Positions 52,258 through 62,066 of a stretch of 64,000 nucleotides of DNA are shown one piece after another (within the stretch, counting starts at the first letter, position 1; every line of letters begins with the position of its first letter). The notes beneath the pieces are model-generated. The model saw nothing but the letters and a program-made list of their open reading frames with translations. It ran no database searches and had not been told where the DNA came from. The stretch comes from Natronococcus sp. AD-5 (GTDB lineage: Archaea > Halobacteriota > Halobacteria > Halobacteriales > Natrialbaceae), in assembly GCF_030734285.1 (NCBI RefSeq), contig NZ_CP132294.1, positions 620,001 to 684,000 of the forward strand, read 5' to 3'. The position numbers and the translations under genes were made by a program.

Positions 52258-53349
52258 CTACACCCGAAGTTGGGACTGCGATTCGGTTCTCGTCCGCTCG
52301 GTTTCGAGCGCCGTGCGCGTATCCGGCGCGAGGCCGACGAGGTGACACAGCGGGTTCCCCGGATAGACGACGGGGTTCTCGAGGACGCCGACGATGAGTC
52401 CGGTGAACGGCGCTTCGACGGTGACGATGTCGTCTTCCTCCTTGAACGGGTTGGTGATGGTACAGATCACCTCCCCTTCCCTGACGAGCGCGCCGCGGCC
52501 GCGCTTCATGTCGACGATGCCGCCGGCGTCCGCGCGGAGCCAGGTCTTCTCGTCGTCGGCGGCGATGACGGTTCGCCAGCCGGGCCAGTGGACCGCGGAG
52601 TCGGGATGGAGGCCGAACTCCGCGAGCACGCTCGCGACGCCGGTGAGCGCGCGATCGATCAGCCGACGCTGGAAGCGGTGGGCCTCGCCCATCTCGACCG
52701 TCACCGTAGGAACCCCAGACTCGGTGGCCTCGCGCCGGAGCGTCCCGGAGGGACCCTCGCCCGCGATGATGACGTGGGAACTGAACGCGTTCGCGAGGCG
52801 GGCGACGGTGGGGTCGTCCATGTTCGCCCGGACGTGGAGCATGTTCGTGCGCCCCCGCGTCGACGTGTGAAAGTCGACCCCGAGGTCGCAGGGTTCGATG
52901 AAGTTGGTGAAGATTCGGTGGGCCATCCGCCTGGCGCTCGTCGACCCCTCGCGGCCGGGGAACGAGCGGTTGAGGTCGCGGTCGTAGATCGGGAGGTACC
53001 GCTCCTGTGCGAGGAAGCCGGGGACGTTCATCACGGGCAGACAGACCAGCGTGCCGTGTAGGTCGGAGTGATCCCAATCGTGGGCCACCTCGCGGACGAC
53101 CTCGATGCCGTTGAGTTCGTCGCCGTGGGCCGCCGCCGAGAGGAAGACCGTCGGACCGGGGTGTTCGCCGTTGATGATCGTCACCGGAATCCTGACCGGG
53201 TCGCCGAGATACGTCTCGCTGATTCCGTACCGGATGTTCGCCGACTCGCCGGGATCGACCCGCCCGCCGTTGTACGTGAACGCGCCGCCTCTCGCATCGG
53301 CGTCGGCCGATTCGATCGAAGAATCGACCGTCGCGTCGTCGCCGCTCAT
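52258..53349 (-). CDS. Succinylglutamate desuccinylase/aspartoacylase family metallohydrolase
   Basis: This 363-residue protein has the M14-type zinc site AAAHGDELNGIEVV (His and Glu ligands), a third ligand in GVDFHTST, RDLNRSFPGREGS with Arg and Asn for substrate carboxylate binding, and ATESGVPTVTVEMGEAH near the catalytic Glu. The C-terminal part includes a barrel-like stretch (DIVTVEAPFTGLIVGVLENPVVYPGNPL). Such enzymes remove acyl groups from amino acids; the exact substrate is uncertain. It is transcribed away from the GNAT gene. Confidence 0.85.
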   Translation of the reverse strand: MSGDDATVDSSIESADADARGGAFTYNGGRVDPGESANIRYGISETYLGDPVRIPVTIINGEHPGPTVFLSAAAHGDELNGIEVVREVAHDWDHSDLHGTLVCLPVMNVPGFLAQERYLPIYDRDLNRSFPGREGSTSARRMAHRIFTNFIEPCDLGVDFHTSTRGRTNMLHVRANMDDPTVARLANAFSSHVIIAGEGPSGTLRREATESGVPTVTVEMGEAHRFQRRLIDRALTGVASVLAEFGLHPDSAVHWPGWRTVIAADDEKTWLRADAGGIVDMKRGRGALVREGEVICTITNPFKEEDDIVTVEAPFTGLIVGVLENPVVYPGNPLCHLVGLAPDTRTALETERTRTESQSQLRV

Positions 53350-53487: not shown

Positions 53488-54240
53488 ATGGAGATCCGCG
53501 AAGCTACCGAATCGGACGTCGACGCCATCCGCTCGATCGCTCACAACTCGCTCTCGTCGACCTACACGGACTTTCTCGACGAAGAGACGATCGACGACGC
53601 GATCGACCAGTGGTACGGGGACGCGTTCGTCGACGACCTCGACGACGACCACGCGCTGATCATGGTCGTCGAGCGCGACGGCGAGGTCGTCGGGTTCTCC
53701 CAGAGCGAACTGGTCGGCCAGCGATACGACACCGGGCAACTGCTGTGGCTCCACATCGATCCCGACCAGCGGGGCGGCGGGACCGGCGTCCGTCTGCTCG
53801 TTCGCACCCGGGAGAAACTCTTAGAGGAGAGCGCCGACCACGTCCAGTGTTTCGTCCTCGAGGACAACGAGGGGGGCAACGAGTTCTACGCGGATCACGG
53901 CTTCGAGCAGGCCGGCCAGCGCGAGGTCGAGATCGGCGACGAGACGTTCACCGAGAACGTTTACGTCGAGAGCGAGATCGAAAGCGGCGACGAGTGGAAC
54001 GCGATCGACGAACTCGAGGTCGACGACGAGACGATCTACGTCAGCTACGGCGAGGCCGCCCGCGGCTCGAAGGCGCCGTTCTACGGCGCCTACGAGACCG
54101 AGGAACAGTCCTCCCGGTACGGCTGGCTCTGCGGCCACTGCGACTCGATCGACAACGCGATGGACTCCATGGGTCGCATCGAGTGCAACGCCTGCGGAAA
54201 CCGGCGCAAGGCGACGCGGTGGGACGCGTCGTATCTCTGA
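53488..54240 (+). CDS. GNAT acetyltransferase with C-terminal zinc ribbon
   Basis: This 250-residue protein begins MEIREATESDVDAIRSIAHNSL and has the GNAT acetyl-CoA-binding region LWLHIDPDQRGGGTGVRLLVRTREKL near residues 89-114 and NEFYADHGFEQAG near 131-143. The C-terminus carries CGHC and CNAC pairs 22 residues apart (about 218-239), a zinc ribbon, with ARGSKAPFYGAY before it. The combination resembles haloarchaeal GNAT proteins with a DUF5816-like tail. ATG at 53473 is an alternative start. The acceptor is unknown; the ribbon could bind nucleic acid or a partner. Confidence 0.83.
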   Translation: MEIREATESDVDAIRSIAHNSLSSTYTDFLDEETIDDAIDQWYGDAFVDDLDDDHALIMVVERDGEVVGFSQSELVGQRYDTGQLLWLHIDPDQRGGGTGVRLLVRTREKLLEESADHVQCFVLEDNEGGNEFYADHGFEQAGQREVEIGDETFTENVYVESEIESGDEWNAIDELEVDDETIYVSYGEAARGSKAPFYGAYETEEQSSRYGWLCGHCDSIDNAMDSMGRIECNACGNRRKATRWDASYL

Positions 54241-54665: not shown

Positions 54666-56135
54666 ATGAACAGGCACGCACACATCATCCACGGGTTCAA
54701 GGCAACGCTGGTCGCGCGGGCGATCTACATGATCTCGAGCGCGCTGCTCATGCTGATCCTGGCGCGCTACCTCCTCGATCCGGACGGGTACGGCGCGCTC
54801 TACTGGGCGATCGGGATCCTCTCGGTCGTCCAGCTGGTCGCGGATCTGGGGCTCGGAAAGTCCGCCGCGCGGTACTTCTCCGAGTACCGGGAGAAAGACC
54901 CCGGGCAGCTCCCGCACCTGATCCGATCGACTGTCGCGTTCAAGATCGTCCTCCTCACGGTCGTCACGTCCGTCCTCCTGGTGTCCCACGAGTGGCTCGC
55001 CGCCGTCCTCGGCGACCCTGAGGTCGCCCCGTTTCTCGCGGCGGGCGCGCTCTACATCGTGGCCTTCTCGTTCAGCTCCTTCTCGCAGATCGCGTTCCAG
55101 GGGTTCAACCACCTCGTCTACAGCGCGATCATCCAGGCGATCAGCGGCCTCGCCAGGCTGGTCTTCGTCGTCGCGTTCGTCGTCCTCGGCGCGGGCGCGC
55201 TCGGCGCCCTCTTCGGCTACGCCGTCGGCTACGCGATCGCCGCCGCCGTCGGGCTGACGGTGCTCTACCTCGAGTTCTACGCCGAGCACGAGCCCGCGGA
55301 CGAGTACGAGCCCGGCCTCTCGCGTCGCCTCGCCGAGTACAGCGTTCCCCTGACGGCCACCCGGAGCGCGAACGTGATCGACAAGCGGATCGACGTCGTG
55401 CTGGTCGGCGTCTTTCTCACCCCCGCGGCGGTCGCGTTCTACACGCTCGGCAAGCAGATCTCCGACTTCGTGCTCGCGCCCGCCGAGTCGCTCGGCTTTA
55501 CGATCTCGCCGAACTTCGGCGAGCAAAAGGCCGCCGGTCAGCTCGAGCAGGCGCGTCAGATCTACGAGACGTCGCTGACGAACGTCCTCCTGCTGTACAT
55601 CCCCGCGACGGTCGGACTCGTGATCGTCGCGGAACCGTTCGTGACGATGGTCTTCGGGGACGACTACGCGGGTGCGGTCCCCGTCCTGCAGGTCCTCGCG
55701 TTGTTCGTCATCCTGCAGGCGATCACGAACCTGACGAGCGACAGCTTGGACTACCTCGGCCGCGCGAGATCGCGCGCGATCGCGAAAGGAGGGACCTCGG
55801 TGGCGAACTTCGGGCTGAACCTCGCGCTGATTCCGACGATCGGCGTCGTCGGAGCCGCTATCGCGACGGTCGCCACGCACACCGTCTACGTGGCGGTCAA
55901 CCTGTACATCGTCCACAGCGAACTCTCCTTGCGACTCGAGCGCCTCGGGCGGTCGATCGGCCGGATCTGCGCGATTACCGGCGTGATGGCCGTCGCCGTG
56001 TTGCTCGTGATGCCGTTGATCTCGAACTTCGTGATGCTCGTCGGCGCTATCGGACTCGGCGCGCTCACGTGGTCGGTCCTCGCCGTCACGACCGGGATGA
56101 TCGACGTCCAGGAGGTCCGGTCGGTAATCACGTGA
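54666..56135 (+). CDS. Oligosaccharide flippase family (Wzx/MATE-like) membrane protein
   Basis: This 489-residue protein has about 12 to 14 hydrophobic helices. Features of the polysaccharide export flippase family include the N-terminal GFKATLVARAIYMISSALLMLILARYLLDPDGYGALYW and a central cytosolic loop near residue 220 (SRRLAEYSVPLTATRSANVIDKRIDVVLVG). It would flip lipid-linked sugars across the membrane for N-glycan or surface polysaccharide assembly. No glycosyltransferase genes are beside it here. It precedes a RimK-type gene by 75 bases on the same strand. Confidence 0.87.
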   Translation: MNRHAHIIHGFKATLVARAIYMISSALLMLILARYLLDPDGYGALYWAIGILSVVQLVADLGLGKSAARYFSEYREKDPGQLPHLIRSTVAFKIVLLTVVTSVLLVSHEWLAAVLGDPEVAPFLAAGALYIVAFSFSSFSQIAFQGFNHLVYSAIIQAISGLARLVFVVAFVVLGAGALGALFGYAVGYAIAAAVGLTVLYLEFYAEHEPADEYEPGLSRRLAEYSVPLTATRSANVIDKRIDVVLVGVFLTPAAVAFYTLGKQISDFVLAPAESLGFTISPNFGEQKAAGQLEQARQIYETSLTNVLLLYIPATVGLVIVAEPFVTMVFGDDYAGAVPVLQVLALFVILQAITNLTSDSLDYLGRARSRAIAKGGTSVANFGLNLALIPTIGVVGAAIATVATHTVYVAVNLYIVHSELSLRLERLGRSIGRICAITGVMAVAVLLVMPLISNFVMLVGAIGLGALTWSVLAVTTGMIDVQEVRSVIT

Positions 56136-56210: not shown

Positions 56211-57551
56211 ATGGCCGTCGCAGATCCCGTCACCGTCGGGGTGTTGAGCCTGCACACGAGCAAGGAAACGAAAGCGATACTCAACGCGGTCGAGGAGCTG
56301 GGCCACGACACCGAGTGGCTTCGAACGGAGAACACGTCCGTCAGCGTCGTCGACGGCAGCGTGACCATCGAGCCGTCGGTGGACGTGATCGCGAACCGGA
56401 TGCTGCTATCGAACACCGAACAACCCTGCGAGGAACTCGGTCTGGTGAACACGTTCGCGGGCCTGGTGCCGATGCTCAACGAGCCGCCGGCGGTGCTGAC
56501 GGCGATCCACAAGATGTCGACGGCCACGGTGCTCGCGGCCAACGAGGTGCAGATTCCGGACGTCACGCTCGCGCTCAGCAACGAGGAACTCAACGACGCG
56601 CGCTCCAGGTACGGCGAGGAGGCCGTCTACAAGACGGCGATCGGCACCCACGGCGGCGGAACGTGGAAGGTCGGGCCGGACGATCCCGTCAACGCGAAGG
56701 TGGGGAACCGGTACGCCTTCCTGCAGGAACTCATCGACCGCGACGACGCCCGCCACCGCGACGTCCGCGTCTACGTCGTCGACGGCGAGATCATCGGCGC
56801 GATGTACCGCTACGCGCCCGACAACGACTGGCGGACGAACGTCGCGCTCGGCGGATCCGTCGAGAACGCCACCGACGACCTTCCCGAGGGCGCCCGCGAG
56901 ATCGCCCAGCGCGCAGCCGATGCGATCGGGCTCGACTACGCCGGCGTCGACCTCGTCGAAAGCGACGAGGGCTGGTTCGTGCTCGAGGTCAACCCGACGG
57001 CCGGGTTCAAGGGGCTCTATCAGGCGACCCAGGTCAGTCCCGCGCCCCACATCGCCAAACTCGCGATCGAACGCGCCGGCGGCGAGGTCGACGACGAGCG
57101 GGTCCGGGACCTGTCCGCCGTCCTCGACGATTCGCCGCCGACGGCGCAGCCGCCCGAGGCGACGGTGACCGTCGAGGAGCCGGCGGTGATCGGCTACACG
57201 GAAGAGGTCGTCCTCTCGGGAACCAGCGGCTCGAAATCGATCATCGCGAAGTCCGACACCGGCGCGACCCGAACGAGCATCGACACCTCGCTCGCGGCCG
57301 ACATCGGCGCCGGTCCGATCAAGGCGATCACGCGCGTCAAATCCGGCAGTCGGAAGACCTCGAGAAGCCGCCCCGTCGTCGACGTCGTCGTCGGGGTCGG
57401 GGGAACCCAGCACACCGTCACCGCGAGCGTCGAGGATCGAGGCCACATGGACTATCAGGTTCTGCTCGGCCGAGACATCCTCGAGCACTACCAGGTCAAC
57501 GTCAGCCGGCGCGCCGACAGCGAGGCGGTGGACAAACCCGAAGAGGAGTGA
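56211..57551 (+). CDS. RimK-family ATP-grasp ligase fused to a RimB-like retropepsin domain
   Basis: This 446-residue protein has an ATP-grasp ligase (about 1-300) with MLNEPPAVLTAIHKMSTATVLAANEVQIPDV, the ATP-binding VYKTAIGTHGGGTW (about 139-152) and FVLEVNPTAGFKG (about 257). From residue 326 a second domain follows: VIGYTEEVVLSGTSGSKSIIAKSDTGATRTSIDTSL, with D349-T-G-A matching the retropepsin-like catalytic motif of RimB (DUF785), ending MDYQVLLGRDILEHYQV. RimK adds glutamates to ribosomal protein S6 and archaeal RimK relatives glutamylate cofactors, while RimB trims such tails. The fusion combines adding and removing domains in one chain. The target in this organism is unknown. Confidence 0.88.
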   Translation: MAVADPVTVGVLSLHTSKETKAILNAVEELGHDTEWLRTENTSVSVVDGSVTIEPSVDVIANRMLLSNTEQPCEELGLVNTFAGLVPMLNEPPAVLTAIHKMSTATVLAANEVQIPDVTLALSNEELNDARSRYGEEAVYKTAIGTHGGGTWKVGPDDPVNAKVGNRYAFLQELIDRDDARHRDVRVYVVDGEIIGAMYRYAPDNDWRTNVALGGSVENATDDLPEGAREIAQRAADAIGLDYAGVDLVESDEGWFVLEVNPTAGFKGLYQATQVSPAPHIAKLAIERAGGEVDDERVRDLSAVLDDSPPTAQPPEATVTVEEPAVIGYTEEVVLSGTSGSKSIIAKSDTGATRTSIDTSLAADIGAGPIKAITRVKSGSRKTSRSRPVVDVVVGVGGTQHTVTASVEDRGHMDYQVLLGRDILEHYQVNVSRRADSEAVDKPEEE

Positions 57552-60380: not shown

Positions 60381-61883
60381 TTACTCGCCCCGCAGGACGA
60401 TCTCGTCGTCGGTGATATCCGATATTTGCGCCGCTTCGACGGGATAATCGTCGTCACCGTGGCCGCCCCAGTTCAGCCGGGCCTTGAGTCGGTCGGTCAA
60501 CCCGGGTTGGGGATCGATGTACGCCGTCTGTCCCTCGACCTCCGCGACGATCCCGACCTTCCCGCCGCGTTCGTCGACGACGTCCTTCCCCTGGTCGTCC
60601 GTCGAGAGTTCGATCGGCGACTCGCCCATCGGGGGTTCCGACTCGGCATCGGCCATCTCCGACTCGGCGCCGCCGGCGGCCACGTCCATATCCGATTCCG
60701 CACCTTCGGCGGCGCCGCCCGTCTCCGACTCGGCACCCTCCGCGGTCGTCTCCGACTCGGCACCCTCCGCGGTCGTCTCCGACTCGGCACCCTCCGCGGT
60801 CGTCTCCGACTCGGCACCCTCCGCGGTCGTCTCCGACTCGGCACCCTCCGCGGTCGTCTCCGACTCGGCACCCTCCGCGGTCGTCTCCGACTCGGCACCC
60901 TCCGCGGTCGTCTCCGACTCGGCAGCTTCGGCGGCCGTCGGCTCCGCGCCCGCGTACTCTTCGACGTCGATGATCTCGCCCTCGAGCACGTCGCTCCCGA
61001 TCACCTCGGACGCGACCAGTTCGGCGTCCTCGAGGACGAACCGCAGCCGCCGCTGTTCGCCGATCTCCTCCTCGATCGTCCGCCGCTCGATGAGTTCGCT
61101 CCGGACGGCGTCGCCCTCGGTGCGGTTGCTCCGGATGACCTCCTGTTCAAGGACGTCGTCCGTCGCGACGTCCGAGCGGACGACGTCGCTCTCGAGGATC
61201 GAGCGCTGGACGCTCTCGAGTTCGACGTTCGTCTCGATCTCGTCGCGCTCGAGTTCGTCGTGCTGTTCGACGTCGACGTCGACCACGCGACTCTCGACGG
61301 TGTAGCGTTCGATCTCCTCGATCGTGTCGAGGCGAGTCTCGTCGACGGTCACCTGGATCGTCTCGTCGTCCAGGAATTCGGTCTCGGTGACGTCCCGGGT
61401 CAGTAATTCCGAGTCGACGACCTCGCGTTCGGCGACGTCCGATTCGACCACCTCGCTCTCGATCGTGTCCCGCTCGACGATCTCGCGCTCGATAACCTGC
61501 GTCTCGACGATTTCGGTCGTCACGGTCTCTCCCTGCCGGAGCGAGTCATCGAGTTCGTCCCGGCCGAGGTCGGTCCGCTCGAACGCCCGATCGCGCTCGA
61601 CGAGTTCGAAAAAGCCCAGCCCCTCGCCCTCGCTCGCCGTCCCTTCCTCGTGGTAGACGAACACCAGATCCTCGTCCTCGAAGGCCTCGATGAACTCGTC
61701 CCAGGTGTGCTCCTCGTGGTCGGCTCCGAGTTCGTCGCGGTGGGCGAACGAGTGGCCGTGGCCTTCGCCGCCGCGAATCGAGACGGGGACGGCGTCGCGG
61801 GCTTCGGCCCACTCTCTGATCCGCTCGGGGTCGGTAGTCATTCGCCGTTCGCTGGACGCATCGTCGGGAGTATCGTTTGCCAT
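60381..61883 (-). CDS. Acidic repeat protein with PRC-barrel-like C-terminus
   Basis: This 500-residue protein starts MANDTPDD (a later MTTDPERIREWAEA at 61841 is possible). Residues 10-90 form a domain with EGHGHSFAHRDELGADHEEHTWDEFIEAFEDEDLVFVY. From about 120 to 300 there is a five-residue pattern of the type hydrophobic-hydrophobic-Glu/Asp-Ser/Arg-Glu/Asp (VIERE, IVERD, TIESE, VVESD, VAERE, VVDSE). Then come about seven copies of ETTAEGAES, encoded by a 27-bp DNA repeat, and a C-terminal PRC-barrel-like part (STDDQGKDVVDERGGKVGIVAEVEGQTAYIDP). I do not know a specific function; PRC barrels often bind RNA or partner proteins. Confidence 0.8.
   Translation of the reverse strand: MANDTPDDASSERRMTTDPERIREWAEARDAVPVSIRGGEGHGHSFAHRDELGADHEEHTWDEFIEAFEDEDLVFVYHEEGTASEGEGLGFFELVERDRAFERTDLGRDELDDSLRQGETVTTEIVETQVIEREIVERDTIESEVVESDVAEREVVDSELLTRDVTETEFLDDETIQVTVDETRLDTIEEIERYTVESRVVDVDVEQHDELERDEIETNVELESVQRSILESDVVRSDVATDDVLEQEVIRSNRTEGDAVRSELIERRTIEEEIGEQRRLRFVLEDAELVASEVIGSDVLEGEIIDVEEYAGAEPTAAEAAESETTAEGAESETTAEGAESETTAEGAESETTAEGAESETTAEGAESETTAEGAESETTAEGAESETGGAAEGAESDMDVAAGGAESEMADAESEPPMGESPIELSTDDQGKDVVDERGGKVGIVAEVEGQTAYIDPQPGLTDRLKARLNWGGHGDDDYPVEAAQISDITDDEIVLRGE
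60721..60936 (-). repeat. 27-bp tandem coding repeat, seven perfect copies
   Basis: Seven exact copies of a 27-base unit (plus-strand gtctccgactcggcaccctc, then cgcggtc) run from 60721 to 60909 with one degenerate copy at 60910-60936. They encode the nonapeptide repeat of the protein above. The perfect identity suggests recent expansion. Confidence 0.92.
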
Positions 61884-62066
61884 AGCGGCGCTAGAACCAG
61901 TCCGTACTTTAGTCGACCTGGCCGTCTTATCGATCAGTATCCCATTTCTTCCGACCCCGCACGAAGCCTGCACTGGCGGGGTCGTAATCGACAGTTGCTC
62001 GGTTTCAGCGGTGATCGTTTCGCCGCTCGAGCGGTCGCAGTGATTGATTACTGGGGTGTGGATCCG

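Follow-up and report, generated by a model that had tools for sequence, protein, structure and literature searches.

A RimK-RimB fusion gene of Natronococcus sp. AD-5 and its AstE/AspA-family partner: a candidate glutamyl-tail system in archaea lacking bacterial ribosomal protein S6

The bacterial enzymes RimK and RimB act on glutamyl tails: RimB cleaves polyglutamate and stimulates the synthesis of poly-alpha-glutamate by RimK (PMC11957791). In the RimA-RimB-RimK system of Pseudomonas the ligase and the retropepsin-type protease are separate proteins and the target is ribosomal protein S6 (RpsF). A study of 2025 described and assayed a RimBK hybrid with RimB first, DP2392 of Desulfotalea psychrophila, which is proteolytically active; the study surveyed bacteria, and the word archaea is absent from its text (PMC11957791). 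RimB-first fusions also occur in Thioclava and Aureibacter. In the Pseudomonas RloA-RloB-RloC system a RimB-like protease is genetically linked to an ATP-grasp gene and there is an osmotic phenotype, the RloA proteases being required under hypo-osmotic stress (PMC12239564). Here we present an analysis of a gene joining a RimK-type ligase to a RimB-type protease in the haloarchaeon Natronococcus sp. AD-5, together with an AstE/AspA-family gene that accompanies it in nearly all the Halobacteriales genomes that have it. The window, that is the whole stretch of DNA analysed, comprises 64,000 nucleotides (NZ_CP132294.1, positions 620,001 to 684,000), and all coordinates refer to it unless another contig or locus is named.

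The gene (56211-57551, + strand) is one open reading frame (ORF) beginning with ATG and specifying 446 amino acids plus a stop codon. Like the Desulfotalea RimBK, for which protease activity has been shown, it has protease and ligase domains of RimB and RimK type in a single chain, but here the RimK-family ATP-grasp ligase comes first and the compact RimB-type aspartic protease domain, with a D349-T-G-A motif, second; the haloarchaeal fusion is a known domain combination in a new order. The original prediction, made from the sequence alone, had already placed both domains in one chain, and matches to PF08443, TIGR00768 and PF05618, with the motif where it had been read, bear this out. Its assumption that RimK and RimB are separate proteins in bacteria does not always hold, as the RimB-first hybrids of D. 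psychrophila (PMC11957791), Thioclava and Aureibacter illustrate. Full-length relatives of 58-87% identity occur in 80 haloarchaeal genomes, which rules out an assembly error as the origin of the fusion. In the survey of archaea that the prediction had proposed, 98 of the 117 genomes of Halobacteriales had the fusion, a conserved gene and not an unusual one among haloarchaea. In a survey of 393 genomes of the phylum, fusion-length frames with a RimB match were confined to the Halobacteriales (the order of the window) among the matches listed, and in the Methanosarcinaceae RimB stands alone.

The near-obligate partner of the fusion, missed in the original prediction, is a gene 2.9 kb away (52258-53349, - strand) whose product is a zinc-hydrolase-like member of the AstE/AspA family (PF24827). 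Among the 117 Halobacteriales genomes 97 carry both genes and 18 neither, with one having the fusion only and one the AstE gene only; in genomes at least 90% complete the figures are 85 with both, 12 with neither and none discordant (Fisher 1.4e-15, kinship ignored). Since the 12 double absences are spread over several families, and some fall in genera whose other species keep both, the two genes have likely been lost jointly more than once. Where both are present they are most often divergent and 71-236 bp apart (77 of 97 genomes); in a further 13 they lie within 6 kb, and in seven they are far apart or on different contigs and are nevertheless co-retained. The product shares the catalytic domain and motifs of the AstE/AspA/DoeB deacylases, with HGDE, FH and GEA intact and common to bacterial and methanogen relatives (32-37% identity), but it scores far under the cut-off of the DoeB model (93 vs 403 bits). 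A search of the open-access full-text literature turned up no account of the archaeal fusion or its AstE partner and, as far as that literature shows, the pairing has not been reported before.

As separate genes the three components also form operons in marine bacteria and in Methanosarcinaceae. Six bacterial records have rimB, rimK and an astE-like gene side by side (Salinivibrio, Phaeobacter, Vibrio nigripulchritudo, V. europaeus, Acaryochloris and Photobacterium), while no such third gene lies nearby in the records of V. campbellii, Halomonas, Thioclava and Aureibacter. The best non-haloarchaeal plasmid match of the Natronococcus AstE product is the Photobacterium trio member (187 bits), above DoeB and other members of the family. 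Of 16 Methanosarcinaceae genomes tested that have a full-length RimB, 15 have the AstE gene at a distance of one gene; where there are weaker RimB-like matches alone, an AstE match was found in just one of seven. Three methanogen loci read completely have the order rimB-rimK-astE, and their RimK proteins are 73-77% identical to that of Salinivibrio. Mechanosensitive channel genes lie a few genes from the trio in V. nigripulchritudo, V. europaeus, Salinivibrio and one methanogen, a count that has no chance baseline; Mg transporters are near the trio in two of these four loci, and an ion channel is near another methanogen trio. Inspection of haloarchaeal fusions, by eye rather than by family search, revealed no evident channel or Mg-transporter genes beside them. 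The trio is possibly tied to salt or osmotic stress. As side observations, methanogen G002 (contig 1, 730395-732316) has a RimK-like gene followed directly by an AstE homologue, with no full-length RimB found, and a RuBisCO-like gene, recognized by eye, directly follows astE in one methanogen trio (L120, 5392-6852).

The RimB/RloA-type retropepsin domain occupies residues 327-434 (57189-57512, + strand). PF05618 (the RimB or "Zn_protease" family) matches residues 369-434 with 33.9 bits against a cut-off of 27, although the match spans just the second half of the model, and on the RimB equivalog NF052261 the fusion is below the cut-off (16.8 vs 200 bits), as is the RimB of the Salinivibrio trio (134.6 bits). 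When the haloarchaeal domain was compared by hhalign with bacterial and methanogen stand-alone RimB, an alignment of 111 columns (30% identity) reached 95.5%, and none of 20 controls with shuffled columns exceeded 7.2%. Residues G328, E331, K347, D349-T-G, R387, R410, M413, G420 and R421 are conserved in the alignment with RimB, from which the domain differs in being some 24 residues shorter, the gap falling after the DTG segment. Within the catalytic motif (57255-57266, + strand), which carries the DTG of A2-like retropepsins (clan AA), D349, T350 and G351 are each present in 83 of 83 fusion proteins and A352 in 82; a D349 that was not conserved would have spoken against the original prediction, and the residue is invariant. 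In Pseudomonas RloA, residues K46, R92, R114 and R137 were modelled by the authors as touching polyglutamate, and the strongest loss of cleavage was that of R114A and R137A (PMC12239564). Three of these, K46, R114 and R137, have their counterparts in K347, R387 and R410 of the fusion, each conserved in all 83 proteins; the RloA numbering was anchored at D48 on the 9g58 sequence, with which all eight named residues agree. A profile that takes in methanogen RimB covers the solved RloA and Lpg0085 chains almost end to end. Homology thus supports a retropepsin fold for the C-terminal domain.

The RimK-family ligase domain (residues 10-283; 56238-57059, + strand) passes the NCBIfam model TIGR00768 (158.2 vs 143.4 bits), and Pfam RimK (PF08443) matches residues 100-281 [1e-24]. 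Its AlphaFold2 model is mostly confident, with RimK (4iwx) and LysX/ArgX (5k2m) as best PDB matches. Residues K101, K141, D247, E259 and N261, which in this fold would have the catalytic roles of an ATP-grasp enzyme, are invariant, and the set of ATP-grasp residues appears complete. MptN, CofF and LysX/ArgX belong to the same RimK-like ATP-grasp branch, but the fusion lies far below the equivalog cut-offs of all of these and of the S6--L-glutamate ligase (NF007764; 69.5 vs 331 bits). In a tree of 35 rows the haloarchaeal ligase domains group together (100/99) and apart from the clade of bacterial RimK (99/96), with long branches that leave the deeper placement unsure; the ligases of the methanogen trios and of the Thioclava and Aureibacter RimB-first fusions, which have no adjacent AstE gene, fall inside the bacterial clade. 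On this ground the RimK-first fusion looks to have arisen independently of the RimB-first ones. The same Natronococcus genome has its own LysX/ArgX-type gene, located in an arginine cluster, and another ATP-grasp protein of the RimK-like kind, some 305 amino acids long (contig 1, 3664297).

Additional copies of the fusion exist. The same genome contains a second one on contig 2 (102128-103432), 48-49% identical to that of the window; in the 17 kb read there no AstE gene was detected next to it, and another AstE homologue (58%) is found at contig 2, 941318. Several plasmid copies carry the NCBI name "RimK/LysX family protein". A plasmid paralogue in Natronosalvus amylolyticus (L133, 5989-7314) has lost the DTG motif, which reads DPT in an otherwise recognisable domain, and its protease half is probably inactive. 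In genome G339 an extra copy adjoining an AstE gene is split into two frames (L128, 8442-9830) and has apparently decayed, with an intact copy elsewhere (L127).

On what does the fusion act? The original prediction had suggested a ribosomal protein or a cofactor, with S6-like and F420-like substrates as candidates. Bacterial S6 (PF01250) was found in none of 31 Halobacteriales genomes, including that of the host, nor in 16 Methanosarcinaceae with full-length RimB; none of these 47 archaeal genomes has it, and the same search was positive in 10 of 14 controls. Its absence excludes S6 as the target of the fusion in these archaea. One RimK of a methanogen trio scored above the S6-ligase cut-off even though its own genome is without S6, which calls into question the automatic label "S6--L-glutamate ligase" on methanogen proteins. 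Use on an F420-like cofactor is not supported either: the fusion reaches 58.6 bits against the CofF cut-off of 300 (TIGR04443), and CofF itself was not found in 41 genomes of the phylum. An MptN-type substrate was likewise rejected, MptN being above its cut-off only in four methanogen genomes.

We propose, at a probability of roughly 0.55, that the fusion is a bifunctional glutamyl-tail enzyme which, with the AstE/AspA-family hydrolase, would synthesise glutamyl tails on an acceptor other than S6 and recycle them. In the scheme that we infer, from the glutamate substrate, its cleavage and the dimerisation to the AstE step, the acceptor and the link to salt or osmotic stress, the ATP-grasp domain would couple a C-terminal carboxylate with an amino acid, of which L-glutamate is the most likely, and so make or extend an alpha-linked glutamyl chain. 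The retropepsin domain would act as a dimer, each chain contributing one D349, to cut that chain, and it may in addition stimulate the ligase in the way that RimB stimulates RimK. The AstE/AspA-family hydrolase would act in this pathway as well, its step probably being the removal of the final residue or of an N-acyl cap. The conserved polyglutamate-site residues, the homology to RimB, the pairing with AstE, the trio of bacteria and methanogens and the absence of S6 all support this proposal.

RimK-like synthases are linked with aspartoacylase in the metabolism of N-acetylaspartylglutamate (NAAG) in the brain. By analogy the fusion might serve a small-molecule pathway, in which the ligase joins glutamate to an N-acyl amino acid in the manner of the animal NAAG and beta-citrylglutamate synthases, the AstE homologue deacylates the product and the retropepsin has a chiefly regulatory role; an osmolyte or storage compound might be what is made. 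The membership of the partner in the AstE/AspA/DoeB deacylase family fits such a pathway, as do the higher scores of the ligase with models of small-carrier ligases (MptN 126, LysX 118 bits) than with the S6 ligase RimK (69.5 bits), the plasmid paralogue without a DTG motif, and the mechanosensitive channels, Mg transporters or ion channel near several trios. The invariance of D349-T-G and of the polyglutamate-site residues in 83 of 83 proteins argues, however, that cleavage of a glutamyl polymer has been retained, and we consider this alternative unlikely, if worth keeping in mind. Ion-transport neighbours are also what one might expect of a turnover of free poly-alpha-glutamate, with the ligase making a counter-ion or reserve polymer, the protease yielding oligomers and the AstE homologue finishing the degradation. 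RimK does make poly-alpha-glutamate in vitro, stimulated by RimB (PMC11957791), and RloA proteases are needed in hypo-osmotic stress (PMC12239564), but our literature search found no report of a primer or polymer in haloarchaea and the ligase domain is divergent in the tree, so that we regard free polymer as quite improbable. Glutamylation of a ribosomal protein other than S6, or of a translation factor, is very improbable as the role of the fusion despite its family likeness to the RimABK ribosome-modification system (PMC11957791), since the archaea tested have no bacterial S6 and the conserved neighbours are AstE and succinate dehydrogenase (SDH) genes, not ribosomal ones.

Several observations weigh against a bifunctional glutamyl-tail enzyme. 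A profile of the haloarchaeal protease domain alone matches the RloA and Lpg0085 crystal chains (8e-10 to 5e-7) in the C-terminal half only. Modelling of the protease fold with AlphaFold2 gave no confirmation, the mean predicted local distance difference test (pLDDT) score of this domain being below 50 from both alignments (full protein, 40 sequences; C-terminal domain, 55 sequences) and a Foldseek search with the model of the C-terminal domain returning no meaningful match. The D. psychrophila RimBK showed no glutamylation of S6 (PMC11957791). As the haloarchaeal ligases form their own long-stemmed clade outside bacterial RimK, their amino acid and acceptor may differ from those of RimK. Lastly, the substrate of the AstE homologue might instead be a small N-acyl amino acid.

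With respect to the remainder of the locus, two genes lie between the partners in most Natrialbaceae loci, one for a GNAT acetyltransferase with DUF5816 (53488-54240, + strand) and one for a polysaccharide flippase-like protein (54666-56135, + strand); they are probably a lineage insertion. KatG, the flippase and GNAT were rejected as partners, as they accompany the pair mainly within the Natrialbaceae. Another neighbour that is conserved, on the side of the AstE gene, is the SDH operon. Elsewhere in the window a large ORF without a Pfam match (60384-61973, - strand) contains approximately seven or eight near-identical TTAEGAESE repeats.

Compared with the Pseudomonas RimA-RimB-RimK system, these archaea likewise have a ligase and a retropepsin-type protease predicted to work on glutamyl tails, but they lack bacterial S6 and their fusion is paired with an AstE/AspA homologue. 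We tentatively suggest, at somewhat less than even odds, that ligase, retropepsin and AstE/AspA hydrolase may constitute an undescribed three-part archaeal glutamyl-tail module, with a target other than S6 and at least two architectures, of which the bacterial S6 system would be one branch. RimK and RimB are known for the modification of S6; a pair of this kind is conserved in archaea without bacterial S6 and fused in haloarchaea, and the third enzyme, kept or lost with the archaeal fusion, also adjoins rimB and rimK in marine bacteria. Of greater interest than the fusion itself are the module of three genes and the lack of S6. They raise the question of whether S6 is the ancestral target of the glutamylation system or a side branch of it.
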